The notes beneath the pieces were generated by a model that did no database searches, was not told where the DNA came from, and was given only the letters and a program-made list of their open reading frames with translations. This document shows positions 506 through 51,316 of a DNA stretch of 64,000 nucleotides, piece after piece (position 1 is the first letter of the stretch; every line of letters starts with the position of its first letter). Source of the DNA: Dyella choica (GTDB lineage: Bacteria > Pseudomonadota > Gammaproteobacteria > Xanthomonadales > Rhodanobacteraceae). The position numbers and the translations under genes were made by a program. The stretch spans positions 1 to 64,000 of the forward strand of contig NZ_RYYV01000021.1 of the NCBI RefSeq assembly GCF_003977665.1, written 5' to 3'.

Positions 506-528
506 GTTGGGGTTGCACCCCAACCTAC
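506..528 (-). repeat. GTAG-headed REP hairpin overlapping sctU stop
   Basis: On the minus strand this reads GTAG followed by a stem GTTGGGGT, short loop, ACCCCAAC. The TAG of the GTAG head (525-527) is the stop codon of sctU. It is one of about nine loci of the same REP family in this window. Confidence 0.8.
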
Positions 529-1598
529 TTCCCGTCACGCGATTCACGCATCGACTCCGCCCAGCGCAGCAGTTCCGCCACCGCCTCGAAGAAATCGCCA
601 GGCAGATAATCGTCCACTTCCACCTTTTCGTATAAACCGCGCGCCAGGTTCACGTTGCGCATGATCGGCACGCCGGCCTCTTCCGCCGCCTGGCGGATCA
701 GGGCCGCTTCGTGGTCCGCCCCCTTCGCGACGATCACCGGCAGATCGTCCTCGCCCTGTTCGTAGCGGATCGCAATGGCCAGATGGGTGGGATTGGTGAC
801 CACCACGCTGGCCTTGCGTACCGCTGCCAGGGTGTTTTGCTGTGACCATTCCTGGTGCAGCTGACGGCGGCGGGTTTTGATCATCGGATCGCCTTCGTTG
901 TCCTTCAGCTCCTGCTTGATCTCGCGCCGGCTCATCTTCATCTTCTTGATGAAGGCATAGCGCTGGTAGAACACGTCCAGCGCCGAGACAAAAAAGAACA
1001 CAAAGATCACACCGGTCGCGAAGCGCTTCACGGCGATCCAAAGCGCTTCGCCCGTCGCCTGCGGCGCAACGTAGGGCAAATTCACGAATTGGCCGATCAG
1101 GGCGAACAACACCCAGATGAACAGGCCGATCAGCAAGCTGCTCTTGACGAGCGCCTTGATTACTTCCACCAGGTTCTCCTGCGAGAACAGCCGCTTGATG
1201 CCTTCGGCGGGATTCATCCGGCTGGCGTCCGGCTTGATTTTTTTGGGCGCGAAGACCGGACCCACCTGCAGGAATTCGACCATTGCGCCGAGCGCCGCTG
1301 CGCTCAGCAATAGCGGCACGGTCAGCCACAGGAAGGCGATGCATGCCGCCAGGCCGACGTCATGCAAGGCCTGCTCGAATGGCTGATGCACTCCTTGCAT
1401 GACCGTATCGAACAAGCCGTTCAAACGCGCGCGGATCAAGGGCATGCCCATCATCAGCAGCAACAACCAAGCCAATACCAGCACCGTGCTGGTCAGCTCG
1501 CGGCTCTTGGGAACGTCGCCGTCCTTGCGCGCGTCGCGCAGCCGCTTGGCAGTCGGCTTTTCGGTGCGATCGCCGCTATCCTTGTTCTGCCCCGCCAT
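525..1598 (-). CDS. sctU: Type III secretion export apparatus protein SctU (HrcU/YscU/FlhB family)
   Basis: Inner-membrane export-gate protein of a T3SS that switches substrate specificity by self-cleavage. The 357-aa length is normal. The N-terminus has the family's charged TEKPTAKRLRDARKDGDVPK segment, followed by about four membrane segments (near residues 38-55, 85-110, 145-175 and 190-210). The cytoplasmic domain carries the autocleavage motif NPTH at residues 269-272 (VVVTNPTHLAIAIRY). FlhB is unlikely because no flagellar genes are nearby and neighbours are T3SS-like. A Shine-Dalgarno-like AGGTG precedes the ATG. The stop codon is formed by a REP element, so the gene sits at the edge of the visible locus; other core sct genes are not in the window. 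Confidence 0.93.
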   Translation of the reverse strand: MAGQNKDSGDRTEKPTAKRLRDARKDGDVPKSRELTSTVLVLAWLLLLMMGMPLIRARLNGLFDTVMQGVHQPFEQALHDVGLAACIAFLWLTVPLLLSAAALGAMVEFLQVGPVFAPKKIKPDASRMNPAEGIKRLFSQENLVEVIKALVKSSLLIGLFIWVLFALIGQFVNLPYVAPQATGEALWIAVKRFATGVIFVFFFVSALDVFYQRYAFIKKMKMSRREIKQELKDNEGDPMIKTRRRQLHQEWSQQNTLAAVRKASVVVTNPTHLAIAIRYEQGEDDLPVIVAKGADHEAALIRQAAEEAGVPIMRNVNLARGLYEKVEVDDYLPGDFFEAVAELLRWAESMRESRDGK

Positions 1599-1683
1599 GC
1601 TTCACCTGATCGATGCCATTACGCGGTGCGCGCTGTTCCAGCCCAACCGAGCGCAGTGTGCACCGGTCCGCGACCCACCACCA

Positions 1684-1699
1684 CCTAGGGAATCCCCCA
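1684..1699. promoter_or_regulatory. Possible shared regulatory motif CTAGGGnnTyCCCC, site 1
   Basis: CCTAGGGAATCCCCC lies in the divergent gap between sctU and the gene starting at 1761. A similar CTAGGGTTTTCCCC lies upstream of the EspA-like gene (4988-5001). Two sites in T3SS intergenic regions suggest a shared regulator, but this is inference from two occurrences. Confidence 0.25.
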
Positions 1700-1760
1700 G
1701 CTGCCGCGGCGCAGCAAGCGACCTAGACTTGCCCCATACACAGAATCGTACCCAGGCACC

Positions 1761-2006
1761 ATGAACGTTTCCGAGCTCTCATCACGTCTGCCGCCGCTGG
1801 CCGGCGCGGACGCGGTCCAGGCGCCGGCCAGCCTGAGCGTTTCCGCGCAGCTTCATGCAGCCACCGGCAATCAGCTGCTGGAGCTCGATGTATGGGCCGG
1901 CACCAGCGCCGCCGAGCGTTTGCTGGGCACGCGCACCGATCTGAACCCTCCCTCCGCTACGCGTCTCGATCAGCTGGTGAGTCATATCCTGGCGCCACTC
2001 GACTGA
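1761..2006 (+). CDS. Small T3SS-locus protein of unknown function
   Basis: An 81-aa protein divergent from sctU and followed 21 bp later by another unknown gene on the same strand. It has a Ser/Ala/Pro-rich N-terminus (residues 1-35) and no signal peptide or membrane segment; the C-terminal half has heptad-like Leu spacing (TRLDQLVSHILAPLD). Size and position are those of small T3SS accessory proteins (inner rod, chaperone or cap), but I recognise no family. There is no strong ribosome-binding site, so the start is only probable. Confidence 0.5.
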   Translation: MNVSELSSRLPPLAGADAVQAPASLSVSAQLHAATGNQLLELDVWAGTSAAERLLGTRTDLNPPSATRLDQLVSHILAPLD

Positions 2007-2027
2007 GATTGGCCGTAGACTGCGTGC

Positions 2028-2705
2028 ATGAGCGCCGATCTGCAAACGTTGGCCGAGCCACTGCTGGAAACGACCCGGCGCCTGGTGGGCGCCCTGCAGC
2101 AAGAGTCATCGATGGAGCTGCGCCTTGCGCTGGCCAAACGCCTCGTGCGCCAGTTGGGCGACGAGGCGTATCCGATCTTCTTGAAGATGCTGCTGATCAT
2201 TGCCGAGAGCGAAGACGCAGCCGCGAAACAGTGCGTGGCCGATCTGCTGGCTGCCGCCGCGCAGCGCATGGATCTCCCGTCCGGGCAGCTGAGCGCATGG
2301 GGCAGTTCCTGCCGCAGCACTGCCGAGGATACGCCCTGCTGCACCCAGGGTTCGATGAATCGCCGCCGTCTGCTTGGTCCGATTGAGTACCTCACCGTGT
2401 GGTATTGCCAACAGACCCAGCGCCAAATGCTGGAGCTGGCCCTATATACCGACGCGATGCGCAAACTGCTGACGCTGTTCGAACTCAATCCGCAATTGCG
2501 CATGTTCTACGCCAGCAAGCTTGGCGCAGATGCCGGAACCGAACTCGAAGGCACCTATACCAGGGACACGCGCGATATTCTCGTCCGGCTTGCGCAACGC
2601 TGGCAGCAGGCCGACAGCACGCCGGAGGAAGTCGTGCAGGCCGCCATTCGCAGCACGGCACCGGTCGTACCGATGCCGCCGGGCTGGATCGTGCATCAAC
2701 TCTGA
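2028..2705 (+). CDS. T3SS-locus protein of unknown function
   Basis: A 225-aa soluble protein, apparently co-transcribed with the preceding 81-aa gene. It is mostly helical by composition: residues 1-80 are Leu/Ala-rich (LAEPLLETTRRLVGALQQ), a Cys/Ser-rich link follows near 95-115, and residues 120-200 form another helical region (EYLTVWYCQQTQRQMLELAL). The end is MPPGWIVHQL. Its place beside sctU suggests a regulatory or sorting-platform accessory role, but no named Sct family was recognised. It is convergent with the GNAT gene, with a 9-bp gap. Confidence 0.55.
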   Translation: MSADLQTLAEPLLETTRRLVGALQQESSMELRLALAKRLVRQLGDEAYPIFLKMLLIIAESEDAAAKQCVADLLAAAAQRMDLPSGQLSAWGSSCRSTAEDTPCCTQGSMNRRRLLGPIEYLTVWYCQQTQRQMLELALYTDAMRKLLTLFELNPQLRMFYASKLGADAGTELEGTYTRDTRDILVRLAQRWQQADSTPEEVVQAAIRSTAPVVPMPPGWIVHQL

Positions 2706-2714
2706 GCGAGTTCA

Positions 2715-3368
2715 TCAATGCGCAAGGGTGGCGCCGCGCTCACGCCACGTTTCCGCATCCAGCTCATAGCAATGGGCCATTTGTCGGCGATGCTCGCACA
2801 ATCCCAGGTCGCGAAATCCGAAGTACGACATGATCCGGCGCACGCGTTGATGATCCGGATGGCAATAGCCGAACAAGCGCGGCAAGCCCACGACCTCGAA
2901 CGCCCGCTGGCACAACAGCCGCGTTCCCTCGATCGCGTACCAGCGCCCCCATGCTTCCGGCTTCAGCCGCACGTGAATCTCCACATCGGCCGTCCCTTCG
3001 ATCGGCAGCAATGAGAAAAGGCCGATGAATGCGCCATCCGGCGCCTCCGCCTGCCACGCTCCGAGACCATGCGAGCTGGCATACAGCCGTTGGACGCAGG
3101 CCACGATCGCAGCCACGTCGATGAAACGCGTAGGACTGTCCAGCAGCAGCGGATACATCCTGGTCTGAGCGAACAGACTGCTCAGCTTTGGAATGTCTTC
3201 ATAACCGACCTCGCACAGCCGCATCCTTCGCGACTGCGGCAACACGGGGCGCGTGGCATTAGCCATTGAAGCGCCTGTAGCAACGTGGCCGCGTGATTCG
3301 CCACCCGCGGTTGATCGAGGAGACTCAAGAACACCTAAAAGGGGTTCGGTTTGGGATGGATCCGACAT
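2715..3368 (-). CDS. GNAT family N-acetyltransferase (RimJ/RimL type)
   Basis: Probably transfers an acetyl group from acetyl-CoA to a small molecule or protein N-terminus. The GNAT fold is seen from about residue 55 (MRLCEVGYEDIPKLSSLF), with the central strand VEIHVRLKPEAWGRWYAIEG and the closing segment PRLFGYCHPDHQRVRRIMSY, in which the usual acetyl-CoA glycines are partly replaced. The ATG at 3368 has a purine-rich GAGGGAG upstream; a shorter start at 3266 (MANATRPVL) would remove an unconserved N-terminus and is also credible. Substrate unknown; relation to the T3SS locus is positional only. Confidence 0.7.
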   Translation of the reverse strand: MSDPSQTEPLLGVLESPRSTAGGESRGHVATGASMANATRPVLPQSRRMRLCEVGYEDIPKLSSLFAQTRMYPLLLDSPTRFIDVAAIVACVQRLYASSHGLGAWQAEAPDGAFIGLFSLLPIEGTADVEIHVRLKPEAWGRWYAIEGTRLLCQRAFEVVGLPRLFGYCHPDHQRVRRIMSYFGFRDLGLCEHRRQMAHCYELDAETWRERGATLAH

Positions 3369-3613
3369 GATGGCCCGTACTCCCTCGGCGTAGCGGACGG
3401 CAGATGAATGAGCCAAGACGGATAAGCGCGTTCAGACAACGGCTGCCGCTATCTCAGCGCGGAAAAAGCCTGCTCCCCTGCCCCATGTCACTCATTACCA
3501 CACCAGCCGGGGACATTTGCCAAGCTGGGAGTTTCCCTAGGCATGCTCGGATCTATTCCACGCCCTCCTCACCGCACGCTTGGAATCCGCACTGCATGCA
3601 CGTCTGGCAAAGC

Positions 3614-3681
3614 GTAGGCTGGGATGACAATCCCAGCTTTGCACACGGCAACCCGATGCTGGGATTGTCATTCCAGCCTAC
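3614..3681. repeat. REP pair (BIME-like), GTAG-headed
   Basis: GTAGGCTGGGATGACAATCC at the left and its near-complement ending CCAGCCTAC at the right form two hairpins facing each other. The right GTAG (complement 3678-3681) supplies the TAG stop of the gene that ends at 3678. Confidence 0.85.
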
Positions 3682-4373
3682 TGCGCCGGCACATAGTCCT
3701 CGTCGCCAATGTGCAGGAGCTGGTCGCCATCGGCATAGAAAAACAGATGCGCCTCGCTGCCATCGTCGTAGCGCAGGTCGATCGAGTAATCGTGAATCCG
3801 GTAGTGCCCCATCCGGACGGCATCCGCAGCAATGGTTGACGCACCTGGTGAAATCAGCCCGCTGTTGCTGGCGTTGCCGAAGCGACCATCGGCATAAAAG
3901 CGATAGCCGTCCGTGCGCATGAAAGAAGCATGTCCGCCGTTGACGGTGTTGCCGCCGCCACCCACATGCTTGTAGCTGCCGCGTATCGGCATCCCCGCAG
4001 CCGCCGGGGGCAGACATTGCGCGCTCGACATCGGAGCATGGCCAGGCATGCTCAAAGCCCTGTCACTGCCCTGCTGCGTCCACGTCCCCCAGTTATCGAC
4101 TTCGTTTTGACGCGACAACTGCGCATCGAAGACGTCAGGCGCAAGCTTCGGATTCGCATACGCGGTGCCGTCCTTCAACAATAGATAAGGCCGCCAAACC
4201 GGAAGGCGCATCCCGCCTACACCGGTTTTGAAGGTTTTCACCAGGCAGACGCTCTCCATGTCGCCGGCGCCAAGACCTGCGGCCTGTACCGGCAAGCAAG
4301 GCCACACGAGCGCAACGGCCAGCAAGAGCGCAAGACCATGCGGACGAGGAGTAAGCATGATGGATAGCCCCAT
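3678..4373 (-). CDS. Secreted protein of unknown function
   Basis: A 231-aa protein with a clear signal peptide (hydrophobic LALLLAVALVWPCLPVQA, cleavage near residue 32). The mature part has two separated Cys and a Gly-rich centre (KHVGGGGNTVNGGH), then short strand-like segments rich in Tyr, Asp and Gly, and a C-terminal half (YRIHDYSIDLRYDDGSEAHLFF) suggesting an all-beta periplasmic domain. No family recognised. It follows the EspA-like gene on the same strand but is separated from it by a strong terminator, so it is probably transcribed separately. Its stop codon lies in a REP. Confidence 0.75.
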   Translation of the reverse strand: MGLSIMLTPRPHGLALLLAVALVWPCLPVQAAGLGAGDMESVCLVKTFKTGVGGMRLPVWRPYLLLKDGTAYANPKLAPDVFDAQLSRQNEVDNWGTWTQQGSDRALSMPGHAPMSSAQCLPPAAAGMPIRGSYKHVGGGGNTVNGGHASFMRTDGYRFYADGRFGNASNSGLISPGASTIAADAVRMGHYRIHDYSIDLRYDDGSEAHLFFYADGDQLLHIGDEDYVPAQ

Positions 4374-4379
4374 AAGCGC

Positions 4380-4415
4380 ATAAAAGAAAGCCGGGACACC
4401 GAAGGTATCCCGGCT
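4380..4415 (-). terminator. Rho-independent terminator of the EspA-like gene
   Basis: On the minus strand: AGCCGGGA, inner pairs around a TTCG tetraloop, TCCCGGCT, then TTTCTTTTAT. The stem starts about 23 bp after the stop at 4438. Stem, UUCG-type loop and T-tract are all present. Confidence 0.9.
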
Positions 4416-4437
4416 ACTGTTTGCGCGTGGTCAACGA

Positions 4438-4821: not shown

Positions 4822-4982
4822 GGTTTTGCCCTCTTCAAGGATTGGGGGGTCGCAAATCAATCGGGTTTGCTTCGCTACGCCAACTGCCCAGCGCCGGCGT
4901 AGATCGGCAATGCAGCGGTGCTTTGGCTGCAAGACCTGCGCGAAGTATGAAAATCCGACCCAATCCATCCAACTAGGCCATT

Positions 4983-5001: not shown

Positions 5002-5023
5002 CATGCTCGTTAGCGCCCCCGCA

Positions 5024-12497: not shown

Positions 12498-13002
12498 GAT
12501 TCCCCCCTGTTGGGTTTACCGCTTGATGGACTTGTTGATGCGTACGCGGACCACCTTGTGGCGCATAAGACACGCGCCATGACCTGCCCTCCCCGGCGGG
12601 CCGCGCAGAACCTTAGGATGTTTGCAAGATCACCCGCTGACACGACGAAGTGATGCGCGCGTACTGCCGCCATCGACGTCGATATCGAACGAATCGGAAC
12701 GGGTGTCGAAAGGAAATTCGTGCGGCGTGCCCCCGTGAACGCCGACATGCTGCACCACCACAAAGGCCGAAGCGCAGCAGCGCGGCCTGTAGTTCTTTTC
12801 TTTCATTTGTCTCCACCGAGTAACGAAATTCGCACTCCCCGGTTGAATGACGAAATGAAGACAAAAAACCCTACCCTGCCATCCTCTTGGGCTGCCCTAC
12901 GTCAGGGCATAGGCTGGCATGGCAATCCCAACACCGGGGCGCGTGCAAGGCCGGGATTATCAGCCCAGCCTATGCGCTGTCCACGATCGGGGCCGCCCTG
13001 AT
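12498..13002. other. Intergenic region with REP pair
   Basis: No gene supported. The left part must hold the autotransporter promoter (minus strand); no clear -35/-10 pair stands out. The right part holds the REP pair at 12908-12975. Confidence 0.6.
12908..12975. repeat. Diverged REP pair
   Basis: CATAGGCTGGCATGGCAATC at left and AGCCCAGCCTATG at right. Same family as the GTAG REPs, but both heads read ATAG. It lies 28 bp past the cupin stop and does not supply it. Confidence 0.75.
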
Positions 13003-15777: not shown

Positions 15778-17078
15778 AGCACCCTGTCCTGTTGCTGTGC
15801 GCGCTGATCGTTGCACCGGCGTTGATCCTGGCCGGCTATATCGCCGGCGTGCGGCATTCGTCACCGCAAGCCTCCACTGCCACGCCTGCGGACAAGCGGG
15901 TGCTCTACTGGTACGACCCGATGATTCCCACCGAGCATCACGACCAGCCGGGCCTGTCGTCGATGGGCATGCAGATGATTCCCAAATATGCCGGCCAGGA
16001 AGACCGCGAAGGCGGCGTGACCATCGCCCCCGAAACCGCGCAGAACCTCGGCTTGCGCACTGCTCTCGTCGAGCAACGTGTGCTTGAGGAAGCCATCAAG
16101 GTGCCTGGCACGATCACCTGGGATCTCGATGAGGCCAGCATAGTGAGCGCACGTGCCGACGGCATCATCACTCGACTCGCGGTGCGCGAGCCCTATTCCT
16201 CGGTGTCGAAAGGCGCGCCTTTGGCAGAGCTGACTGCACCGGCCTGGAGCAGCGCCGTGGCCGAATACACGGCGCTGGGACAGACCCGTTCACCGGATGC
16301 GCAGGCTCTGCGCAGTGCGGCGCGCGAGCGCCTCGCCGTACTGGGCCTGGAAGCCGGTGATCTGCACTCGATCGACCGCAACGGCGCAGTGACCTTGCAC
16401 GCTACGCAGAGCGGTGTGGTCACCCGGATCGAAGTGCGTGAAGGCCAGCGCGTCAACGCGGGCCAAACCTTGATGATGCTCAACGGCCTGGCCAAGGTAT
16501 GGATCGACGCGGCATTGCCGCAAGCGCTGGCAGGTGCCGTACATCCCGGCACACCGGTGTCGGTGAGCGCCGACGCCCTGCCCGGCCGCCGCCTCGCCGG
16601 CACCGTGCAGGCCATGCTGCCCGATCTGGATGGCAGCACGCGCACTCAGCGCGCGCGCATCGTGCTGGCCAATCCCGATGGCGCCCTGAGCCCTGGCATG
16701 TTCGTCCAGGTTGGCCTCCAGCCAACGCCGGGCGAGGCAACACCGATCATTCCGGATGAAGCCCTGATCGCCACCGGCGAGCAGGCACGCGTGATCGTGG
16801 CCGATGACGGCAACCGCTTTCATCCGGTGGCGGTACGTACCGGTCGCTCTGCCGGCGGCTACACGCAAATCCTCGCCGGACTCAGGGCGGGCCAGCGCAT
16901 CGTGCTGTCAGGCCAGTTCCTGATCGATTCCGAAGCAAGCCTGTCCGGCGCCCTGGAACGGCTGAGCGATCCCGATGGTTCGTCCACGGACAACAACGAT
17001 CGTATGAGCATGCCGATGGACGACATGCCAGCCCATCCAGGCAGCAGCCCGGCGATGTCAAAGGGAGCGCAACGATGA
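15774..17078 (+). CDS. cusB: Periplasmic adaptor of copper/silver efflux (CusB-like)
   Basis: A 434-aa membrane-fusion protein bridging the RND pump and the channel. An N-terminal membrane anchor ([20 protein letters not shown]) is followed by the heavy-metal-binding domain [26 protein letters not shown], which has the Met residues used for Cu(I)/Ag(I). The hairpin, lipoyl and beta-barrel regions follow ([35 protein letters not shown]). The C-terminus is Met-rich ([13 protein letters not shown]). The Met ligands favour copper/silver over zinc/cobalt. It overlaps cusA by 4 bp. Confidence 0.92.
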
Positions 17079-20000
17079 TCGCCGCCCTGATCCGAACTGC
17101 GATTGCACACCGGCTGCTGGTGCTGCTGGCTGCCATCGTGCTGGCACTGGCTGGTGTCTTCGCAACCCTGCATACACCGATCGATGCGTTGCCCGATCTT
17201 TCCGACACCCAGGTGATCATCCGCACGCCCTGGCCGGGGCAAGCGGCCCAGGTCGTCGAAGACCAGGTGACCTATCCGCTCGCCACCACCATGCTCTCGG
17301 TGCCCGGCGCCAAAGTGGTACGTGGTTATTCCTTCTTTGGCGATTCCTACGTCTACGTCCTGTTCGACGACAGCACCGACTTGTACTGGGCGCGTTCGCG
17401 CGTGCTGGAGTACCTGAGCCAGGTGCGCGACCGCCTGCCGCGTGGTGTCAACCCGGCGTTGGGGCCGGACGCCACCGGCCTGGGCTGGATCTACGAATAC
17501 GCGCTGGTCGACCGCAGCGGCCGCCACGACCTGGGCCAGCTACGTGCGCTGCAGGACTGGTTCCTGCGCTATCAGCTCAAGACCGTGCCCGACGTTGCCG
17601 AAGTGGCCAGCCTGGGCGGCATGGAACGCACCTGGCAGGTCGTGCCTGATCCGCAGGCCCTGGCTGCACGCGGCCTCACCGTGCAGCAATTGATCGATGC
17701 CGTGCGCACAGCCAACGGTGCCAACGGTGGTTCCGTGCTGGAGCAAGGCGAAGCCGAACTGATGGTGCGCAGCGAAGGCTATCTGCGCAGCCAGCAGGAT
17801 TTTGAACAGGTGCCGATCATGGCGAACGCCAATGGTGTGCCGGTTCTGCTGCGTGATGTGGCCACGGTGCGCCGTGGCCCCGGCTTCCGCCGCGGCGTCG
17901 CCGAGCTCGACGGCCAGGGCGAAGTGGCCGGTGGCGTGATCGTGCTGCGTTCGGGCAAGAACGCGAAGGCAGCCATCGCCGCGGTGAAGTCGCGCCTGCA
18001 GGAACTCCAGCTCAGCCTGCCGGCCGGCGTCGAGATCGTGCCGACTTACGACCGCTCCGAACTGATCGATGCCGCCGTGGAAAACTTGCGCGGCAAGCTG
18101 CTGGAGGAGTTCATCGTCGTCGCCCTGGTGTGTGCACTGTTCCTCGGTCACCTGCGCTCGGCGCTGGTCGCCGTGGTGACTTTGCCACTGGGCGTGCTGG
18201 CCGCCTTCATCGTGATGCGATTGCAGGGTGTGTCGGCCAACCTGATGTCGCTGGGCGGCATCGCCATCGCCATCGGCGCGATGGTCGATGCCGCGGTGGT
18301 GATGATCGAGAACGCCCACAAGCATCTTGAACACTGGCGCGCGGCACACGGGCGCGAACCGCAGGGCGCCGAACGCTGGACGCTGATGGCGGCAGCCGCC
18401 GCCGAAGTGGGACCTGCTCTGTTCGTCAGCCTGCTGATCATCGCGCTTTCCTTTGTGCCGGTATTCGCGCTGCAAGGCCAGGAAGGCAAGCTGTTCAAGC
18501 CGCTGGCCTTCACCAAGACCTATGCGATGGCCGCCGCCGCCGGGCTTGCGGTGACCCTCGTGCCGGTATTGATGGGCTGGCTGATCCGCGGCCGCATCCG
18601 CGCCGAGCACGAGAACCCGCTGAACCGGATGCTGATCGCCCTCTATCGCCCCCTGCTCGATGCAGTGCTGCGCTTTCCCAAGCTGACCTTGGCGCTGGCC
18701 GGCCTGGCTCTGCTCAGTGCACTGGTTCCGTTGCACCAATTGGGCAGCGAGTTCATGCCGCCGATGGACGAAGGCACCCTGCTCTACATGCCGACCGCAC
18801 TGCCGGGCCTGTCGGTGGGCAAGGCCTCGCAACTGCTGCAGCTCACGGATCGCATGATCAAAACCGTGCCCGAAGTCGAGCATGTGTTCGGCAAGGCCGG
18901 GCGCGCCGAAACCGCCACCGATCCGGCGCCCACCGAAATGTTCGAAACCACCGTCACGTTCAAGCCCAAGTCGCAGTGGCGGCCGGGCATGACCATGGAC
19001 AAGCTCAAGCAGGAACTTGACCGGGCGGTGAGGGTGCCGGGCCTGACCAATCTGTTCGTACCGCCGATCCGCAACCGCATTGACATGCTGGCGACCGGCA
19101 TCAAGAGTCCGATCGGCATCAAGGTGCTGGGCGCCGATCCGGTGGTGCTGCAAGGCGTGGCCGACCGTATCGAGGCCGTCGCGCGCAAGGTTCCGGGCGT
19201 GGGTTCGGCGATTGCCGAGCGGGTTGCCAGCGGCCGCTATCTGGATGTGCGCATCCGCCGCGACGATGCAGCACGTTACGGCCTCAGCCAGCAGCAATTG
19301 CAGGAACTGATTGCCACGGTGGTCGGTGGTGATCCGATCGGCGAGGTGATCCAGGGACGCGAACGCTATCCGATCGTGCTGCGCTATCCGCGCGAGCAAC
19401 GTGATTCGATGGCAAGTCTGCGCGATTTGCCCATCGTCGCAGCCAACGGAGCACAGCTGGTGTTGAGCCAGGTTGCCGACCTCAGCCTGAGTCCGGGCCC
19501 GCCCATGCTGAAAAGCGAAAACGGCCAGCTCGCGACTTATGTCTACATCGACACGGCCAGCGGCGACCTGGGCCGCATTGTCTCCGACTTGCAGGGAGCG
19601 GTCGCTCGCCAGGTGCAGCTACCACCCGGCGTCACCCTCGCCTGGTCGGGGCAGTTCGAGTACCTGGTCAGTGCCATGCAACGGCTGGAATACGTGGTGC
19701 CGGCGGCCTTGGCGATCGTGTTCGCCCTGATCTTCACGCTGTTTCGCAAAGCCAGCGAGGCAGCCCTGATCATGGCCAGTGTGCCGCTCGCGCTGGTAGG
19801 CGGACTGTGGCTGATCTGGCTGCTCGGCCACTCCGTCTCGGTGGCGACGATGATCGGTTTCATCGCCCTTGCGGGCGTCGCTGCCGAGTTCGGCGTGGTG
19901 ATGCTGCTCTACCTGCGCCATGCCTGGGAACACCGTCTGGCCCGCGATCCCCACGCCGACGCGGATGCACTGGACGAAGCAATCCGCGAAGGGGCAGTGC

Positions 20001-20212
20001 AACGCGTGCGTCCCAAGGCGATGACCGTGGCGGTGATTCTTGCGGGCCTGTTGCCGATTCTGTTGGGCCATGGCGCCGGTTCCGAGGTCATGCAACGCAT
20101 CGCCGCACCGATGGTGGGCGGCATGCTCACCGCGCCACTGCTGTCCATGCTCGTCCTGCCCGCCGCGTACCGCTTGTTGGTTCGACATCGCTTGCAACGT
20201 CCGCTGGGATGA
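17075..20212 (+). CDS. cusA: Heavy-metal RND efflux pump (CusA/CzcA family)
   Basis: A 1045-aa proton-driven inner-membrane trimer exporting Cu(I)/Ag(I). The N-terminus [20 protein letters not shown] and [20 protein letters not shown] are family hallmarks. The transmembrane relay region [20 protein letters not shown] carries the conserved Asp. [20 protein letters not shown] includes Met residues of the copper site. Twelve membrane segments in two halves, the second at about residues 870-1030. With CusB-type Met ligands the substrate is most likely copper/silver. Confidence 0.93.
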
Positions 20213-20217: not shown

Positions 20218-20278
20218 GTAGGCCGGGGTGCAAACCCCAGCATTGCCATGTACACACATCGCGATGTTGGGGTTTGCC
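20218..20278. repeat. REP hairpin interrupted by MITE-like insertion
   Basis: GTAGGCCGGGGTGCAAACCC begins a REP 5 bp after cusA. Its partner arm (GATGTTGGGGTTTGC) breaks off where the 184-bp repeat begins; a matching GGGTTTGCACTCCAACC resumes at 21211 after the second 184-bp repeat. Confidence 0.65.
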
Positions 20279-21213: not shown

Positions 21214-21230
21214 TTTGCACTCCAACCTGC

Positions 21231-21256
21231 ATGCTGGGATTGTCATCCCAGCCTAC
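21231..21256 (-). repeat. REP hairpin
   Basis: On the minus strand GTAG then GCTGGGAT, GACA, ATCCCAGC. It lies 18 bp past the stop of the beta-barrel gene and could protect its 3' end. Confidence 0.8.
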
Positions 21257-21275: not shown

Positions 21276-22502
21276 TTAATACAAAACCCGCATGCTCAGC
21301 TGCACCTGCGTGTCGACCTGATGAGCAGGCAGTCCGTACTCGGCACGTAGCGTCGCCGTGCTGTCGATGTGCAGCACTTCTGCCGTAAGGCGCAAATAGT
21401 CTCGAGGCCGCCAGTTGAGCGCCGCCGTCACCGCATTGCCGTGTTCGGCCTGGCGCCAATCGGGATCATCGGACGAGGTCCGCGTGCTGAAATGCTCGAT
21501 GCGCAAGGCGGGGCGCCATGCGCCCAGGTTCCATCCTGCCAGCACGAATGCCGCACGGTAACGAGTACGCAGGAATTGGTCCACCGTCAGCCCGCTGCGG
21601 GTGTCGCCATCCATGACCTGTGCAATCCAGGTTACTGCAGCGATATCGGTGCGCGCCCCGGCGCTCCAGAAGCGCGTGCGCCAGGCATACTCTCGATCGC
21701 CGCCGGCATAGAAAGCGGATGCGCTCGGATCGGCACGATTGTCGTAGTGCATGAGACTCACGCGGGTATCGCCGGGGGCACGCCAGCCAATCGCCACGTA
21801 ATCGCCCCAGTGAGCCCTCCCGATACTGCGAAAGAGGTCGTAATAGCCCGGCAGCCTGTCGCCGTCGGCGCTGACCTCGGCATCGGGCTCGCGCAGACGG
21901 CTGCCGATGCCTGCAATCAGGTCTCCGATCGCCCAGCCTCGTGTCGCGAGCAGGGTGCCGGCGAGGTCATCGCGGCGGAACAACGACGCGCGCAACTCCC
22001 AGGTATTGACCTCGCCGCGACGTTCCAGCAGAAATTCGCTGCCGAGGGCGCGCAACTCCTCGCCGGTCCAACTGTTGATGGCCGAGGAGCTGAGCGTCCA
22101 TGGGCTGGTCCAGCCAATACCGTCGTTCTCCATCGAGACCGGCGCAAACAGCACGCCGGCACGCAGCGACCAACGCCAGGGGGTAGTGGAGACCGGGCGA
22201 TAGCGCAGCCAGGCCTCCAATACGCTGAATCCGCTATGGCCGCTGGTTTGATATTGCACCTGTCCCAGCGCGAGCAGTTCGGGGGTGATCTGCGCCGCGG
22301 CCAGCACGGCGCCGCCTCCGAAGTGAAAATGCGTCTTGCCGTCGCCGTAGCGAGCTTTGCCAAAACCGCCACGCGTCCAGCTCGCGTCATCCGGCGCCGC
22401 CACCAGCCGCTCGTCGGCATAGGCATGCAGATCGGTGTCCTGCGCATGCAGCGACATGGCGACACCCCACACCGCAACGATCGAACACAGTCGATATTTC
22501 AT
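21276..22502 (-). CDS. Outer-membrane beta-barrel protein of unknown function
   Basis: A 408-aa protein with a signal peptide (LCSIVAVWGVAMSLHA, cleavage after HAQ). The rest is a chain of alternating strand-like segments with aromatic girdles (WELRASLFRR, GDYVAIGWRA, RVSLMHYDN) and ends STATLRAEYGLPAHQVDTQVQLSMRVLY, as outer-membrane barrels do. No specific porin family recognised. Its ATG overlaps the stop of the GGDEF-EAL gene by 4 bp, the last gene of a three-gene unit. Confidence 0.75.
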   Translation of the reverse strand: MKYRLCSIVAVWGVAMSLHAQDTDLHAYADERLVAAPDDASWTRGGFGKARYGDGKTHFHFGGGAVLAAAQITPELLALGQVQYQTSGHSGFSVLEAWLRYRPVSTTPWRWSLRAGVLFAPVSMENDGIGWTSPWTLSSSAINSWTGEELRALGSEFLLERRGEVNTWELRASLFRRDDLAGTLLATRGWAIGDLIAGIGSRLREPDAEVSADGDRLPGYYDLFRSIGRAHWGDYVAIGWRAPGDTRVSLMHYDNRADPSASAFYAGGDREYAWRTRFWSAGARTDIAAVTWIAQVMDGDTRSGLTVDQFLRTRYRAAFVLAGWNLGAWRPALRIEHFSTRTSSDDPDWRQAEHGNAVTAALNWRPRDYLRLTAEVLHIDSTATLRAEYGLPAHQVDTQVQLSMRVLY

Positions 22503-28737: not shown

Positions 28738-29108
28738 CTACTCCCTGTCCTGGTCGGCACGCATGCTGATGCTTGATACCCGCTTTTTGCAAGTCTATCG
28801 ATCGGCGCTCTGTGGCATGAAGACTTAGACAAACGGCCCGAAGGATTGCCCTTTAAAGGGAACCATCTCCGGTTTGACACCTTCGGAACGGCGTAGGCTG
28901 GGATGGCAATCCCAGCACCGCGTGTACCGCGTGTGATGTGCATGGCAATGCTGGGATTGGCACCCCAGCCTACGCGGAATGGAAGGAACTGTTTGTGCCG
29001 AATTCCATACTGGCCCGCGTCAAATTTTTCTAGACGCCCTGGCCCGTAGATAGCCACTATGCACGATTCCGCCATGCAGCTGCTACGATTTGCAGGAGTG
29101 ACCAACAG
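28738..29108. other. Intergenic region with REP pair
   Basis: Divergent gap between the Sel1 gene and the peptidase gene. It holds promoters for both and the REP pair at 28893-28973. CAGGAG before 29109 is the ribosome-binding site of the peptidase gene. Confidence 0.6.
28893..28973. repeat. REP pair (BIME-like), GTAG-headed
   Basis: GTAGGCTGGGATGGCAATCC and, facing it, a copy ending CACCCCAGCCTAC. The only REP pair in the window that lies in a divergent promoter region rather than at gene ends. Confidence 0.85.
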
Positions 29109-33603: not shown

Positions 33604-34488
33604 ATGAATGTGGGCATGACCGGTGACCTCATCCCTTTTCGACTCGTCGCTGCCGACGGCTACGTTTTGGGTGCGACTCGTTTCCCGGCCGCGCAGCCTC
33701 TGCGTGGCCGCCTGGTTGTTGCAGGGGCAACCGCCGTTCCACAGGGCTTCTATCGTCGCTTCGCTCAATTCGCCAGCGCATGCGGGTTCGAAACCCTGAC
33801 ATTCGACTACCGCGGCATCGGCCAATCCAAGCCGTCGACCTTGAAAGGCTTTCAGGCGTCGTTTTTGGATTGGGCCAGGCTTGATCTGGCGGGCGCCGTA
33901 TACGCCATGGCCGCGCATGACGTTCCGCTCTACCTGGTCGGCCATTCTTTCGGTGGCCATGCGTTCGGGCTGCTGCCCAATCACCACCAGGTCGCAGGTC
34001 TTTACGTGTTTGGCATCAGCGCCGGCTGGCATGGCTGGATGCCTGTAGGCGAGCGTTTACTGGTACTTCTGATGTGGAACCTGGTGTTTCCACCGCTGGT
34101 GTGGTGGAAAGGCTACTGTCCCTGGCAGATACTGGGTATGGGCGAGGACATCCCCCTGGATGTTTACCGGCAATGGCGCCGCTGGTGTCGTTATCCGCAC
34201 TATTTCTTTGACGACCCTGCCATGCCGGACATGGCCACAACCTACGCCACCGTCCATGCCCCGATCATGGCAGCCAATGCACTCGATGACGGATGGGCGC
34301 TCCCCGCTTCACGCGATGCCTTTGTTCGCCATTACACGAACGCCCCTGTCGATACACAGGACCTTGATCCTGTACCACTGGGAGGAAAGCTCGGTCATAT
34401 GGGCTATTTTCGGGCAAACGCAGAACCTTTATGGACCCAAGCCCTGACCTGGTTCACGCAACTGCGCCACAACAGGAAGCCGGCATAA
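33604..34488 (+). CDS. Alpha/beta-hydrolase
   Basis: A 294-aa soluble hydrolase. TFDYRGIGQSKPS precedes the nucleophile elbow GHSFGGHA (Ser near residue 118). The final His is probably LGHMGYF near the C-terminus, and the acid is likely the Asp of ANALDDGWA. The start at 33604 has GGAAAGG 6 bp upstream. Resembles YheT/serine-hydrolase-like proteins (KxFP motif absent); substrate unknown. Confidence 0.85.
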   Translation: MNVGMTGDLIPFRLVAADGYVLGATRFPAAQPLRGRLVVAGATAVPQGFYRRFAQFASACGFETLTFDYRGIGQSKPSTLKGFQASFLDWARLDLAGAVYAMAAHDVPLYLVGHSFGGHAFGLLPNHHQVAGLYVFGISAGWHGWMPVGERLLVLLMWNLVFPPLVWWKGYCPWQILGMGEDIPLDVYRQWRRWCRYPHYFFDDPAMPDMATTYATVHAPIMAANALDDGWALPASRDAFVRHYTNAPVDTQDLDPVPLGGKLGHMGYFRANAEPLWTQALTWFTQLRHNRKPA

Positions 34489-35803: not shown

Positions 35804-35826
35804 GCTGGGATGGCATCCCAGCCTAC
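35804..35826 (-). repeat. Single REP hairpin overlapping DUF4349 stop
   Basis: GTAG on the minus strand, then GCTGGGAT GCC ATCCCAGC. The TAG (complement 35823-35825) is the stop codon of the DUF4349 gene. Confidence 0.85.
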
Positions 35827-36602
35827 ACGGCGTTGCGCTGGCGGGATTTTCGCGTTACCCGGCGCCAGAACCACCACCAAACCAAGGCCAACGGGAAAGC
35901 CAGCAGCAGGAAAGGAAGGCCATAAGCCAACATCTCCAAGGCGTCACGGATGCCCTCATACAACTGGTCGATGGAATCGCTCAGAGAAACACCTAGATGA
36001 TGGCCGCGTGTCTCGTCGGTGAAATCCATCTGCAGCAGATTCGTGTCGATACGTCTTTGCTGCTGCGCCGCGACGTTTTGAAAATTTTCACGGTCCACTT
36101 GTATCTGCGCGCGCTCATGACTGAGCGCGATGAGATCGCTCGTGGAAATATCCTTGCGCTGTGCAAGCTGCTCCACTTGCGCGGAGTAGATTTCCAACTG
36201 CTTCAGTTTCCGTTCGTTGTCGTTGACCGCGTCGGCCAGATCTTCTGCCCGCGTCTGCCGCGACGCCAGCTTGCCATCCTGGCTGGCCATGCCTGTGAGT
36301 GGCTCGACGCCCGCAGGCACCACACGCACCGTCAGCGAACCGTTGTGCTCGCTTTGCTCGATGTTCAATACATTGCAGGCACCGAAGCGTGCCGACTCGC
36401 AAGCTTCGCGCAAGGCGGCCATGCGCGGCGCAAGCTGCCCTTCCTGCAATTCGATGCGCAGGTGATGCTCATAAGCCAGCTTGGCTCCTGCCTTCGCCGA
36501 TTCACCGGCAACCGGCAAAGGCTTGGCCTCCTGCTTCTTCGAACAAGCTGTCGCCAACAGGGCCAGCGTTACTACCAGCATCCAACGCATTGCTGTGCGC
36601 AT
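35823..36602 (-). CDS. DUF4349 lipoprotein with C-terminal membrane segment
   Basis: About 259 aa. Lipoprotein signal LVVTLALLATACSKK with lipobox Cys near residue 20. A long helical coiled-coil region (EDLADAVNDNERKLKQLEIYSAQVEQL; RIDTNLLQMDF) is the DUF4349 signature. A C-terminal membrane segment YGLPFLLLAFPLALVWWWFW is followed by a basic tail. Function unknown; envelope-located. Its last codons abut a REP. Confidence 0.88.
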   Translation of the reverse strand: MRTAMRWMLVVTLALLATACSKKQEAKPLPVAGESAKAGAKLAYEHHLRIELQEGQLAPRMAALREACESARFGACNVLNIEQSEHNGSLTVRVVPAGVEPLTGMASQDGKLASRQTRAEDLADAVNDNERKLKQLEIYSAQVEQLAQRKDISTSDLIALSHERAQIQVDRENFQNVAAQQQRRIDTNLLQMDFTDETRGHHLGVSLSDSIDQLYEGIRDALEMLAYGLPFLLLAFPLALVWWWFWRRVTRKSRQRNAV

Positions 36603-36799
36603 CATCTTCCCTTGCCTTGTAGTGGTTCCCGAAGGCCTGACTGATCTGCCTGAGCGGCATCAGTCCTGCCTTGGCCGGAGCATGTCATGCTGATCCGGCC
36701 GGTGTCCACGGTTCACTTCAGTCCCTTTATAAATCGCTTTCCCGGCCCATGAGTCTTTTCCGCACACGCTCCAGCCCACCAGGTGCGCCCAGGCCGGCG

Positions 36800-39099: not shown

Positions 39100-39100
39100 G

Positions 39101-41630: not shown

Positions 41631-42485
41631 ATGGACATCAGCGCCGCCCGTACCTTCCTGGAAATCGTCAAGACCGGCAGTTTTGTCAGCGCTGCGTCCA
41701 ACCTCAATCTTACCCAGACCGCCGTGAGCGCACGCATCCGCGTACTGGAAGAACAGCTCGACCGTCCCCTGTTCGTCCGCAACAAGGCCGGCGCCCGCCT
41801 GACCCCCGCCGGTGAGCAATTTCAGCGCTTCGCCGCCACCATGGTCCAGGCCTGGGAACACGCGCGTCAATCGGTGGCCCTGCCGCCGGGACGCGAGATG
41901 GTGGTGACGGTGGGAGCCGAACTCAGCCTGTGGGATCCCTTGCTGCGTGACTGGCTGCTATGGGTACGCAATGCCTGTCCCGAGTTTGCCGTAAACGCGC
42001 TGATCGACGATGCCGAACGCCTGGTGGAGCGCGTACAGGAAGGCCTGCTGGATGTCGCCATCGTGTACGCCGCTCCACAACGACCGGGCGTGATCGCGGA
42101 ACTGCTGTTCGAAGAAAAGCTGGTCATGGTCAGCGCCATGCCGGCGGATCGCAAGCACCCGTTGCGCGCGGAAGATCACGTGCACATCGACTGGGGCGAT
42201 GCGTTCGCCGCCAGTTACCAGGCCGCCTTCCCGGAGCAGCCGAACCCGGTCGTGTCGGTCAGTCATGGACCGCTGGCGCTCGAATATATTCTCACTCGGG
42301 GCGGCAGCGGTTATTTCCGCAAAGGCTTCGTACGCCCGTATCTCGACGACGGACGTCTGGCACTCGTGCCTGGCACTCCTGAATTTTCCTATTCAGCCCA
42401 TGCGGTGCACTCTGCCAAGGCCGACAAAGGCGTGATGGAGCGCATTCGCGTTGGCCTGCGGACAGTGGCGCCGAAGATCGCGTAG
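41631..42485 (+). CDS. LysR-family regulator of the divergent efflux operon
   Basis: A 284-aa protein with an N-terminal winged helix (MDISAARTFLEIVKTGSFVSAASNLNLTQTAVSARIRVLEEQLD) and a C-terminal effector-binding domain. Divergent position with a palindromic site between indicates control of the FUSC operon, likely activated by an aromatic acid as AaeR is. Its TAG stop (42483-42485) is supplied by a REP. Confidence 0.93.
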   Translation: MDISAARTFLEIVKTGSFVSAASNLNLTQTAVSARIRVLEEQLDRPLFVRNKAGARLTPAGEQFQRFAATMVQAWEHARQSVALPPGREMVVTVGAELSLWDPLLRDWLLWVRNACPEFAVNALIDDAERLVERVQEGLLDVAIVYAAPQRPGVIAELLFEEKLVMVSAMPADRKHPLRAEDHVHIDWGDAFAASYQAAFPEQPNPVVSVSHGPLALEYILTRGGSGYFRKGFVRPYLDDGRLALVPGTPEFSYSAHAVHSAKADKGVMERIRVGLRTVAPKIA

Positions 42486-42554
42486 GCTGGGATGGCAATC
42501 CCAGCATGGCGTGTGCTGCAGCATGGCAATGCTGGGTTTCACAACCCAGCCTAC
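42482..42554. repeat. REP pair supplying stops to two convergent genes
   Basis: GTAGGCTGGGATGGCAATCC at left and AACCCAGCCTAC at right. The left GTAG holds the LysR stop and the right GTAG (complement) holds the stop of the phosphatase-like gene, so both convergent genes end inside one REP pair. Confidence 0.9.
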
Positions 42555-42910
42555 GATTGTGATTCCAGCGTACGCGGCAAAAATCCAGTCACTTTCTGCC
42601 GGAGCAACTGGACGAGTATTGGATCCATGAAATCATATTCATCGGGAATATCCAGGCAAATGACGCGCTTGCCATTCAAATAGCGCTTGAATTTCTTGGC
42701 GAGCTTGTTGCGATGGGCCTTTTCCATCACGAAGATCATGTCCGACCAGGCGAGCAGTTCAGGGGAAACCGGCGTGTTGGCGTCGTTGCCCAAGCCAGCC
42801 GATTGCGACTCCATACCCGGCCAATCCGCAAAGACCTGCTCGGCCGTCGGGCTGCGAAGGCGGTTTTGTGAGCAGACAAAAAGGACGTGACGAAGCAAGG
42901 ATGACCTCAT
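42551..42910 (-). CDS. Low-molecular-weight protein-tyrosine-phosphatase-like protein
   Basis: A 119-aa protein. HVLFVCSQNRLRSPTAE holds the CX5R(S/T) active-site loop; a possible general acid is Asp in FMDP. It is somewhat shorter than classical LMW-PTPs (about 150 aa). Co-transcribed with the GNAT gene upstream (4-bp ATGA overlap). Substrate unknown. Confidence 0.85.
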   Translation of the reverse strand: MRSSLLRHVLFVCSQNRLRSPTAEQVFADWPGMESQSAGLGNDANTPVSPELLAWSDMIFVMEKAHRNKLAKKFKRYLNGKRVICLDIPDEYDFMDPILVQLLRQKVTGFLPRTLESQS

Positions 42911-47304: not shown

Positions 47305-47359
47305 CCCTGCTGCCTGCAGGGAAACGGACCTGGTCGCGACAGGACTTCGAGCATCATCA

Positions 47360-48502: not shown

Positions 48503-48564
48503 TCACGGTCACGCAGCACAAGCAGGCTGCGGCGTTCCCCATGGCCAGATAAGGCGCCAAAGCG

Positions 48565-50055
48565 ATGCTAAAGATTCAGGTCGGCCACTCGTATTTCCTG
48601 CGGTACGACCGGAAACAATGGGAACGTGGCAAGCCCTATCCTCCGCTTGCGACGATCCAGGTTGCCGCCTTGCTGCGGCAGATGGGGCATGCGATCAGCC
48701 TGTTCGACGCCATGCTGGCCGAAGGCGTGGAAGATTACGCCGCATCGTTGCAAGCCGCGGCCCCCGACGTGGTGGTGTTCTACGAAGACAACTTCAATTA
48801 CCTCACCAAGATGTGCCTTGGCGTAATGCGCGAAGCGGCCTGCAGCATGATCGGTGAAGCGCGGGCGCGCGGCGTGCGCATCATCGTCGCCGGCTCTGAC
48901 GCCTCCGATCAGCCAGAAGCGTTTCTGGCCGCCGGCGCGCATGCTGTACTGATCGGCGAAGGCATCGCCGCCCTGGCCGAATTGATCAACCGCCTGGAGC
49001 GCGATCGCGGTATCGACCATGCAAGCTGGATAGCCGGAATCCCCGGCCTGGCCACCCAGGTCAGCGAAAAGACGCAGGTGACGCGCATCGGCGTGGTGCC
49101 GCCGGATCCGCGACTGACGCTGCGCCCGGCCTGGGATCTGCTCGACATCGAGCGCTATCGCGCCATGTGGCAAGAACGGCATGGCTACTTCAGCCTGAAC
49201 ATGGCCGCTTCGCGCGGCTGCCCGTTCCGCTGCAACTGGTGTGCCAAGCCGATCTGGGGCAACCACTACAACCAGCGCAGCGCGCAGGACATGGCGGCGG
49301 AGATGACGTACCTGAAGCAAACCTTCCAGCCCGACCATATCTGGATGGCCGACGACATCTTCGGCTTTCACGTCGACTGGGTCACCGAGTTCGCCGAGCA
49401 CTTGAGCCGTTCCCGCGGCTCGGTGCCGTTCACCATTCAGACCCGCGCCGACCTGATCAGCGAACGCATGGCCGATGCGCTCAGGCAGGCCGGCTGCTCG
49501 GAAACCTGGATCGGCGCCGAAAGCGGCAGCCAACGCGTGCTGGACGCGATGAACAAGGGCACACGGGTGCCGGAACTGATCGCAGCACGCGAACGATTGG
49601 GAAGCCGCGGCATTCGCGTCGGCTTTTTCATCCAGCTGGGCTACCAGGGCGAGCAATTGAACGATCTGCTCGCTACCCGCGAACTGGTGACGCAAGCCGC
49701 GCCGGACGATATCGGCGTGAGCGTTTCCTATCCTTTGCCCGGCACCAAGTTCTACGAACAGGTGAAGGAGCAGCTCGGCAAGAAAACCCACTGGGATGAC
49801 AGTGGCGACCTGGCGATGATGTTTCGCGGCGCCTACGACTCGGATTTCTATCGCCGCTTCCGCGACCTGCTGCATGAGCAGGTCACGCTGCAGCAAGCGC
49901 AACCCGACGAAACCGCTGAGCATTACAGCCAGGCCTGCACGGCGCTGGATGCTCGATGGAGTGCGCTGATCGCCAGCGAATCGGCCCATCGCACCGAGCA
50001 CGCAATCTCCCCCCTAGCCACGATCCGCCATGCTGCCGCCGCTCAAAATTGTTAA
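48565..50055 (+). CDS. B12-binding radical SAM protein
   Basis: A 496-aa enzyme. Residues about 15-160 form a cobalamin-binding Rossmann domain (DVVVFYEDNFNYL, IIVAGSDASDQPEAF, VLIGEG). The radical SAM core carries the [4Fe-4S] motif RGCPFRCNWCAKP at about residue 218. Such enzymes catalyse methylations or rearrangements on unactivated carbons. Coupled to the NTase gene (26-bp overlap). Substrate unknown. Confidence 0.88.
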   Translation: MLKIQVGHSYFLRYDRKQWERGKPYPPLATIQVAALLRQMGHAISLFDAMLAEGVEDYAASLQAAAPDVVVFYEDNFNYLTKMCLGVMREAACSMIGEARARGVRIIVAGSDASDQPEAFLAAGAHAVLIGEGIAALAELINRLERDRGIDHASWIAGIPGLATQVSEKTQVTRIGVVPPDPRLTLRPAWDLLDIERYRAMWQERHGYFSLNMAASRGCPFRCNWCAKPIWGNHYNQRSAQDMAAEMTYLKQTFQPDHIWMADDIFGFHVDWVTEFAEHLSRSRGSVPFTIQTRADLISERMADALRQAGCSETWIGAESGSQRVLDAMNKGTRVPELIAARERLGSRGIRVGFFIQLGYQGEQLNDLLATRELVTQAAPDDIGVSVSYPLPGTKFYEQVKEQLGKKTHWDDSGDLAMMFRGAYDSDFYRRFRDLLHEQVTLQQAQPDETAEHYSQACTALDARWSALIASESAHRTEHAISPLATIRHAAAAQNC

Positions 50056-51241
50056 GGACGGCCTGTGCCGCACCACCGAAACGCTCGCTGCGGAATTGGC
50101 GCGCCCCGGTGGCGATGCGCCCGAGTGGAACGAACTGGAATGGCGCCTGGCTTGCGCTGCTGCCGCCGCGCACGGCATTTCGCCAATGCTGTGGCGCTCG
50201 TCGCCCTGGCAAAACCTGGCCTGGCGGCGCTTTCTGGAAGACCAGTACCGGCATGTCGAGCAACGTCATCAGCGCATCACGGCCTTGCTTGGGCGTATTG
50301 ATGCGGAGGCCCGCTCGGCCGGCATTGCCATGGTCGCCCTGAAGGGCTCCGCCTTGCATGCCATCGGCCTGTACGCGCCGGGCGAACGCCCCATGGCAGA
50401 CATCGATTTGCTGGTGCGCGATGAAGACCTGGAGCGAACCGGCGAGCTGCTGCAATCGCTGGATTACGTGGAATCGTTCAGACAGTGGAAACATCGGGCG
50501 TTCAAGCCTGCTACCGGCGAACCGGTGCTGGGATTGGGTGAGCACCGCGATACGCCGATCAATATCGAACTGCATACGCGCATTCAGGAGCGGCTGCCGA
50601 TTTCCACGATCGACATCACCCATCGCGTCTACCCGCGCCATCCGCAGCCGGGCTTGAATCCCTATCCTTCCATCGGCGCCTTGATGAGCCATTTGCTGCT
50701 GCATGCCGCCGGCAATATCTGCGGGCGCAGCCTGCGCATGATGCATCTGAACGACATCCCGCTTTTGGCCCGGCGCATGAGCCTCAGCGATTGGGATGCG
50801 TTGTGGAATGAACCAGTGCCGGCGTGGTGGGCCTTGCCGCCTCTGCGCATGGTGGCGCGCTATTACGCCGACGCGGTTCCGCGCGTTGTGCTTGACCGCC
50901 TGGAACCGGAGTGTCCACCCTTGCTGCGCAAGATGTCACGGCAGCAGACGCTGACGCAGGTTTCCTGCTCGGCCCTATGGCTTAGCCCGCTGCCCGGCAT
51001 CGAATGGTCGCGTTCGCTGGGCGAAGCCGGTCGCGTTGTATTGAATCGAATCAGGCCTAGCGAAGAAGCCCGCCAGGAACGCGTCGACATGCTGCGTACG
51101 CAACTTTGGCTGCAAGGACAACCGTGGGGCCGCCTGAAACTAGGGCGACGGATACTGACCTGGCTGACCCGGCCGGTACCGCGAATGGATATGTTGTACG
51201 TGGTGCGGGCAGCGTTGGATGAATTTATTTCGGCGGCTTGA
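50030..51241 (+). CDS. Nucleotidyltransferase family protein (NTP_transf_5-like)
   Basis: A 403-aa protein. AMVALKGSALHAIGLYAPGERPMADIDLLV carries the nucleotidyltransferase-fold Gly-Ser and Asp-x-Asp signature. Proteins of this family accompany HprK-related kinases and PqqD-like peptides in modification loci. It starts inside the radical SAM gene, so translation is coupled. The reaction (nucleotidyl transfer to a peptide or sugar) is inferred. Confidence 0.78.
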   Translation: MLPPLKIVKDGLCRTTETLAAELARPGGDAPEWNELEWRLACAAAAAHGISPMLWRSSPWQNLAWRRFLEDQYRHVEQRHQRITALLGRIDAEARSAGIAMVALKGSALHAIGLYAPGERPMADIDLLVRDEDLERTGELLQSLDYVESFRQWKHRAFKPATGEPVLGLGEHRDTPINIELHTRIQERLPISTIDITHRVYPRHPQPGLNPYPSIGALMSHLLLHAAGNICGRSLRMMHLNDIPLLARRMSLSDWDALWNEPVPAWWALPPLRMVARYYADAVPRVVLDRLEPECPPLLRKMSRQQTLTQVSCSALWLSPLPGIEWSRSLGEAGRVVLNRIRPSEEARQERVDMLRTQLWLQGQPWGRLKLGRRILTWLTRPVPRMDMLYVVRAALDEFISAA

Positions 51242-51253
51242 GCGTTCGCCTGC

Positions 51254-51316
51254 GTAGGCTGGGATGAAATCCCGGCATTGCTATGGGCACGAAGCTGGGA
51301 TTTCATCTCAGCCTAC
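51254..51316. repeat. REP pair at convergent gene ends
   Basis: GTAGGCTGGGATGAAATCCC at left and TTTCATCTCAGCCTAC at right. The right GTAG (complement 51313-51316) supplies the stop of the GT4 gene; the left lies 13 bp after the NTase stop. Confidence 0.9.

Follow-up and report, generated by a model that had tools for sequence, protein, structure and literature searches.

How do a stop codon and a repeat come to share the same three nucleotides? The question is raised by a 64-kb stretch of Dyella choica DNA, the whole of which is called the window here. In it, REP elements with a GTAG head lie close to the ends of genes and, at six sites, exactly on them (Table 1). The first-pass annotation placed this family at about nine loci, which is a fair count, except that one inverted pair has ATAG heads instead. 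Its central claim, that the TAG of GTAG is the stop codon of six genes, holds at every one of them, the TAG being an open-frame end inside a GTAG head with its hairpin arm. The two convergent genes said to end within a single REP pair do so.

The window contains 14 GTAG heads followed by an arm with at most two mismatches. Two of these, at 34242 and 60933, were judged on inspection to be fortuitous and left out, being inside called genes and having no REP hairpin; 6 of the remaining 12 are stops. The inverted pairs comprise four with GTAG heads and the one with ATAG. Pfam supports the names given to the window genes: an export protein of the FlhB/YscU family (PF01312, the sctU-like gene 525-1598), DUF4349, LysR, an LMWP-like protein and a glycosyltransferase. 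For gene 3678-4373, Pfam gave nothing at E 0.001. The GT4 protein is 86% identical to its counterpart in Dyella flagellata and 74% to that in D. nitratireducens.

Table 1. REP elements in the window and their positions relative to gene ends
Feature	Position	Strand	Relation to gene ends
REP, variant arm GTTGGGGT	506..528	-	The sctU-like gene 525-1598 terminates at TAG 525-527
Inverted REP pair	3614..3681	.	Minus-strand head 3678-3681 gives the stop (TAG 3678-3680) of gene 3678-4373
Inverted REP pair, ATAG heads (not GTAG)	12909..12973	.	Away from any stop
REP	20218..20241	+	TAG begins 9 nt past the first stop base of 17075-20212
REP	21229..21256	-	TAG begins 23 nt past the first stop base of 21276-22502
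Inverted REP pair	28893..28973	.	Between divergent genes, no stop concerned
Single REP	35806..35826	-	The DUF4349 gene 35823-36605 (PF14257) terminates at TAG 35823-35825
Inverted REP pair ending both convergent genes	42482..42554	.	LysR stop 42483-42485 (+), LMWP-like stop 42551-42553 (-)
Older half-REP GTACGCTGGAATCACAATC	42555..42573	-	Read through, in another frame, by the LMWP-like gene 42551-42910 (-)
Inverted REP pair	51254..51316	.	Minus-strand head gives the stop (51313-51315) of the GT4 gene 51313-52686

The REP family and its possible mobilisation

In D. choica the element is built of GTAG, the arm GCTGGGAT, a loop that is mostly 3-4 nt long, and ATCCCAGC. Inverted pairs are frequent, and among the matches listed many plus- and minus-strand occurrences of GTAGGCTGGG are spaced by about 55-65 nt. 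By exact count, GTAGGCTGGG is present in 694 copies in the D. choica genome, against 9 for the reversed control; there are 858 copies in the sister Dyella G005 and 1 to 58 in 14 other Dyella. On both strands of an 864-kb sample, GTAG precedes 128 of the 309 hairpins with a GCTGGGAT-type arm, and the next commonest tetranucleotide precedes 36. Only two of the 128 heads are inside called genes. Among syntenic gaps, a D. choica REP occupies 22 of 55 convergent, 31 of 341 unidirectional and 2 of 48 divergent ones. The family is thus a GTAG-headed palindrome of high copy number that is intergenic and forms inverted pairs (BIME/REPIN), as is typical of GTAG-type REPs.

SMAG is the name of the REPs of Stenotrophomonas, which this family had been said to resemble. 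The resemblance holds for the architecture: Smal REPs, in the portions of Nunvar 2010 (PMC2817692) drawn on here, have a GT(A/G)G head, a perfect GC-rich stem, a loop of 2-4 nt and a high copy number. It does not extend to the stems, because those tabulated there differ by eye from GCTGGGAT. The GTAG REPs described in sections of Di Nocera 2013 (PMC3733652) are also similar, with a GTAG head, a short palindrome, many copies, inverted dimers and a location mostly 3' of unidirectional and convergent genes. Those sections contain neither Dyella nor a count of stop overlaps; the arm here is GCTGGGAT, and a comparison of orthologues is added.

A second family, GTAGGTTGGG, has 698 copies in G010, 227 in G001, 199 in G002 and 181 in G006, compared with 54 in D. 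choica and 20 in G003. Since the counts of the two families vary from genome to genome, the dominant REP family differs between Dyella species: GTAGGCTGGG leads in two of them and GTAGGTTGGG in four others, a turnover within the genus. G003 is poor in REPs, with 7 GTAG hairpins in 400 kb and none at a stop. Tandem half-REPs also occur, in which GTAGGCTGGGATGACAATC or a near variant is followed directly by GTAGGCTGGG in a 19-nt step; they are found at the stop of 13004-13585 in L016, at the stop of 2771-4114 in L020, and elsewhere. At L020 gene 11 and its counterpart L196, one species has a REP pair and the sister a single shortened hairpin, which is the outcome that a deletion between two REPs would leave; the TAG stop is kept. 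In D. choica and G005, CGC is favoured directly 5' of the GTAG heads of the GCTGGGAT-type family, which may mean that the head is longer or that insertion prefers such sites. The base before GTAG is C in 64-67% of elements of every class, at a stop or not, compared with 29% of intergenic bases. As the preference is present in all classes, it does not mark stop-located REPs as a separate kind of insertion.

A search for a RAYT gene, advised by the first-pass annotation, yielded one candidate. A profile search of 68 contigs gave one Y1_Tnp match in the D. choica genome (L045), which is RAYT-like; its NCBIfam REP_Tyr_transpos score of 52.5 bits is below the cut-off of 80. Within this 3.2-kb locus a REP pair is located about 310 nt upstream of the gene and none downstream. 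In the parts of Nunvar 2010 (PMC2817692) concerned, rayt genes are delimited by REPs, unlike this candidate, and none of the 14 loci examined had a REPtron, that is, a RAYT bordered on both sides by a GTAGGCTGGG-family REP. Judging from the biology of such families, the REPs may nevertheless be mobilised by a RAYT. Another Dyella, G012, has many copies of an IS200-like transposase, seen as 16 matches in which the open frame is 152 aa long and the scores are identical or almost so; its count of GTAGGCTGGG is low (11).

An excess at exactly one offset

The distances between stops and REP heads were collected from two samples. That of D. choica covers 864 kb (the window and 40 stretches of 20 kb) with 740 called genes, and that of G005 covers 798 kb with 663 called genes. 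Genes were taken from a simple codon-usage caller that leaves the last 20 codons of ORFs longer than 60 codons unscored. Offset zero means that the TAG of the REP head is the stop. Of the strict GTAG hairpins in D. choica, 21 of 128 are at the stop; 46 are spread over the 40 positions before it, with at most 5 at any one, and none is found at +1 to +40. When any GTAG hairpin is counted, 25 of 172 in D. choica and 24 of 163 in G005 are at the stop, with no head at +1 to +40 in the former and a single one in the latter. Genes almost never read past a REP head.

Heads of this family 0-60 nt after a same-strand stop were compared with a density null. In D. choica 23 of 76 are the stop itself, against 1.59 per neighbouring position (p = 3.7e-19), and in G005 22 of 74, against 1.52 (p = 2.0e-18). 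In both species heads are about 14 times as dense at the stop offset as at positions 4 to 30. The coincidence, which the first-pass annotation had judged unlikely to be chance on six cases, is therefore far above expectation in both samples. When the definition is relaxed, a REP head ends 27 of the 142 TAG-stop genes of the D. choica sample.

The REP/BIME elements of E. coli MG1655 also have a GTAG head, and RAYT is known in E. coli, but none of 57 GTAG heads there is a stop (300 kb, genes from the same caller of our own). Eight of these heads are within 60 nt behind a same-strand stop, too few for a spike test. The overlap as such has been noticed before: according to a passage in Di Nocera 2013 (PMC3733652), the termini of GTAG REPs "often provide" a TAG stop to flanking ORFs. 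The expression 'stop codon' is absent from the main-text portions of PMC8266576 and PMC6006769 that were covered, and literature searches among open-licence papers showed none devoted to counting REP-stop overlap. The phenomenon is already known, and the GTAGGCTGGG family with its numbers appears to be new, as far as these searches reach.

Orthologous gene ends and older stop codons

D. choica and G005 share 549 reciprocal pairs of orthologues with a median identity of 93%, pairs below 60% identity having been dropped. A REP stop is present in both species in 11 pairs and in only one in 36. The REP-stop labels in this set, and in those of G003 and the other relatives, are looser than the strict set, and a few are without a good hairpin (e.g. 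L029 gene 0 and the partner of L030 gene 0). In the 36 discordant pairs the protein ends at the same residue in 22, differs by 1-3 residues in 12 and by more in 2. The protein end, which the first-pass annotation proposed to compare with orthologues lacking the REP, is thus altered in about a third. Since the ends agree in most discordant pairs, the REP is located at or very near the native end. Truncation by the REP was rejected for most genes, the ends being within 0-3 residues in 34 of the 36. End shifts are nevertheless commoner here than in pairs without a REP stop (14 of 36 vs 46 of 502, p = 6e-6), of which 456 of 502 agree exactly.

Among the window genes, the orthologue of the sctU-like gene in G005 has TAA at the same codon. 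Three orthologues of 3678-4373, each ending in TGA, encode proteins that exceed its product by 0-1 residue. The DUF4349 gene had no orthologue in the five relatives searched. At the convergent pair, the LysR orthologue in G005 ends in a REP-like TAG and the LMWP-like one in TAA. The half-REP GTACGCTGGAATCACAATC encodes the last residues of the LMWP-like protein, a REP-coded tail that runs until the stop in the next head, and two orthologues end 4-5 residues earlier than the product of 42551-42910. The plus-strand head of the pair at 51254..51316 has its TAG 16 nt past the first base of the TGA of gene 50030-51241, the orthologue of which in G005 itself ends in a REP head.

The stops that preceded the REP heads can be sought in the REP-poor G003. 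Genes with a REP stop in D. choica or G005 have in G003 12 TGA, 10 TAA and 4 TAG stops (n = 26). This comparison, like that with the other relatives, was restricted to proteins of at least 80 aa whose orthologues had at least 62% identity, aligned ends and a stop away from the locus end, and the sctU-like gene was absent from the joined queries. TAG is not significantly enriched at these genes (4 of 26 vs 22 of 226 others, p = 0.32), and genes with a plain TAG also turn over much, 8 of 39 having TAG in G003 compared with 14 of 187 for TGA/TAA genes. TAG thus appears, from these small numbers, to be mostly the younger state at REP-stop genes. The suggestion that the elements create stop codons is sound in the sense that TAG mostly replaces TGA or TAA at the same or a neighbouring codon, and the ends observed are clean and in frame, as had been claimed.

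How head and stop are joined

The explanation that we hold to be probable, with considerable reserve, is that stop and head are fused by insertion or deletion and that misframed outcomes are lost. REPs gather just 3' of genes in D. choica and G005, where the spacer between stop and REP is short and changes fast between species. The reading frame would be brought onto the head if an element inserted at the gene end or if a small deletion took out the sequence separating stop and REP. In the fitting frame the TAG of GTAG would terminate the gene at once; other frames would append REP-coded residues, and such outcomes, which are almost never seen, would have been purged. The fused gene would keep its protein end within a few residues, and the TAG, now its sole stop, may outlast decay of the hairpin.

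Several comparisons are consistent with this order of events. By eye, an intact or damaged REP follows the partner's own stop at a distance of 7-18 nt in 7 of the 36 discordant pairs: at 7 nt for L011 gene 3 and L030 gene 7, 8 nt for L021 gene 3, 9 nt for L029 gene 12, 16 nt for window gene 39 and L017 gene 11, and 18 nt for L034 gene 11. Stop and head therefore seem to become fused. At L034 gene 11 the right flank is common to both species, which fits a deletion that joined the GTAGGC of the stop to the GTGGGC of the head. Other pairs, in contrast, resemble a replacement at the stop; at L034 gene 0 the sister has TGA in place of the REP and the same right flank, though different last residues. 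A REP-like sequence with a changed head is present at the partner's stop for L005 gene 16, L006 gene 14, L026 gene 17, L027 gene 6 and L030 gene 0.

The spacers do vary. The offset comparison, for which 8 of the 549 pairs with less than 140 nt after the stop were also dropped, gave 28 pairs with a strict REP within 60 nt in both species, and the offset is kept in 9. It is kept in 3 of the 19 in which neither REP is at the stop, and in 3 pairs a REP that is at the stop in one species is separated from it by 7, 8 or 16 nt in its counterpart. Some of the pairs with differing spacers may be independent insertions, which would likewise give differing spacers and so count against fusion, as does the agreement of protein ends, which is closer than random joins would produce. 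Slow one-way drift into the fused state was rejected, because private and shared REPs are equally often at the stop: 17 of 48 REPs private by script and 26 of 79 shared. On reading, 3 of the 17 private fused genes have a REP-like partner, and without them the private count is 14 of 45.

A wider reading is that REPs rewrite stops genome-wide, changing TGA or TAA to TAG at almost the same residue, that certain genes are affected again and again through differing families, and that TAG scars are left which shift the usage of the lineage. It is conceivable and put forward tentatively. TAG is the stop of 142 of 740 genes in D. choica (19.2%), 127 of 663 in G005 (19.2%) and 32 of 326 in G003 (9.8%; p = 3e-4), at a GC content of 0.622, 0.619 and 0.600, respectively. 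With REP stops removed, the excess over G003 shrinks to 38 of 250 vs 26 of 268 for D. choica (p = 0.06) and to 37 of 253 for G005 (p = 0.11); a paired comparison with G003 gives 29 vs 14 non-REP TAGs (p = 0.03). This excess is weak, so the part of the reading that concerns scars has little to stand on.

That the element instead chooses its target, inserting beside a (G)TAG or TA-containing stop already there, so that the stop is old and the REP lands on it, is unlikely as the main cause, even though it had been one of the original proposals. The partners without a REP stop in the 36 discordant pairs have TAG in 18 cases, TGA in 10 and TAA in 8. A REP stop thus stands opposite a plain TAG of the sister in 18 of 149 cases, compared with 18 of 891 opposite TGA/TAA (p = 2e-7). 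GTAG without a hairpin is itself frequent at stops in the D. choica sample (36 at the stop vs 40 in the following 40 nt), and L037 gene 6, like some other genes, has TAG in all five relatives. In addition, REP-less partners of private fused genes have TAG or TAA in 14 of 17 cases vs 354 of 955 (p = 2e-4), or in 11 of 14 without the three REP-like partners (p = 3e-3), so that some support for targeting stands. However, this TAG/TAA excess could reflect stop preference, deletion microhomology or scars of lost REPs. A plain TAG in the sister can be such a scar, the heads being damaged to CTAG, ATAG or GTAA in several partners. The TGA or TAA stops of 22 of the 26 G003 genes argue against a pre-existing TAG as the main target, most TAGs looking derived, although the numbers are small. 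Furthermore, the one clean single-REP empty site among the 10 gaps listed (L018 gene 13 vs L193), from a search that also took in the first and last of 42 gap alignments, has no GTAG, and hence the element brought it; its head lies away from any stop.

A function at the stop is a poorer candidate still. A hairpin that starts at the stop would lower or time translation, as is reported for REPs in E. coli, and be kept by selection; part of RepRanger 2025 (PMC12306157) names REPs no more than 15 nt from the stop as stalling ribosomes. REP stops recur at the same genes in a third species, G010 (11 of 40 vs 2 of 62 other genes, p = 5e-4), the REP family often being another one between species; the other genes in these comparisons are whichever ones happened to fall on the loci compared. 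Yet the recurrence is not significant in G002 (4 of 41 vs 2 of 61) and is not seen in G001 (0 of 22 vs 1 of 29); in G003 there is no REP stop at any of 26 REP-stop genes or 226 others. No common function is evident among the six window genes, and some sisters have damaged heads and hairpins. That an abundant repeat should overlap gene ends by chance, REPs being adjacent to genes anyway (76 heads within 60 nt), is refuted by the peak at the stop in the offset histograms of two species.

The counts put a figure on an effect that the REP literature had mentioned in passing. In the samples of two species about one-third of the REPs closely behind a gene are its stop, at one exact offset. In practical terms, gene ends and 3' hairpins should be annotated jointly in REP-rich genomes. 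If the TAG scars are real, mobile hairpins would be a source of stop codon change, and the use of TAG in REP-rich genomes need not reflect selection on termination.
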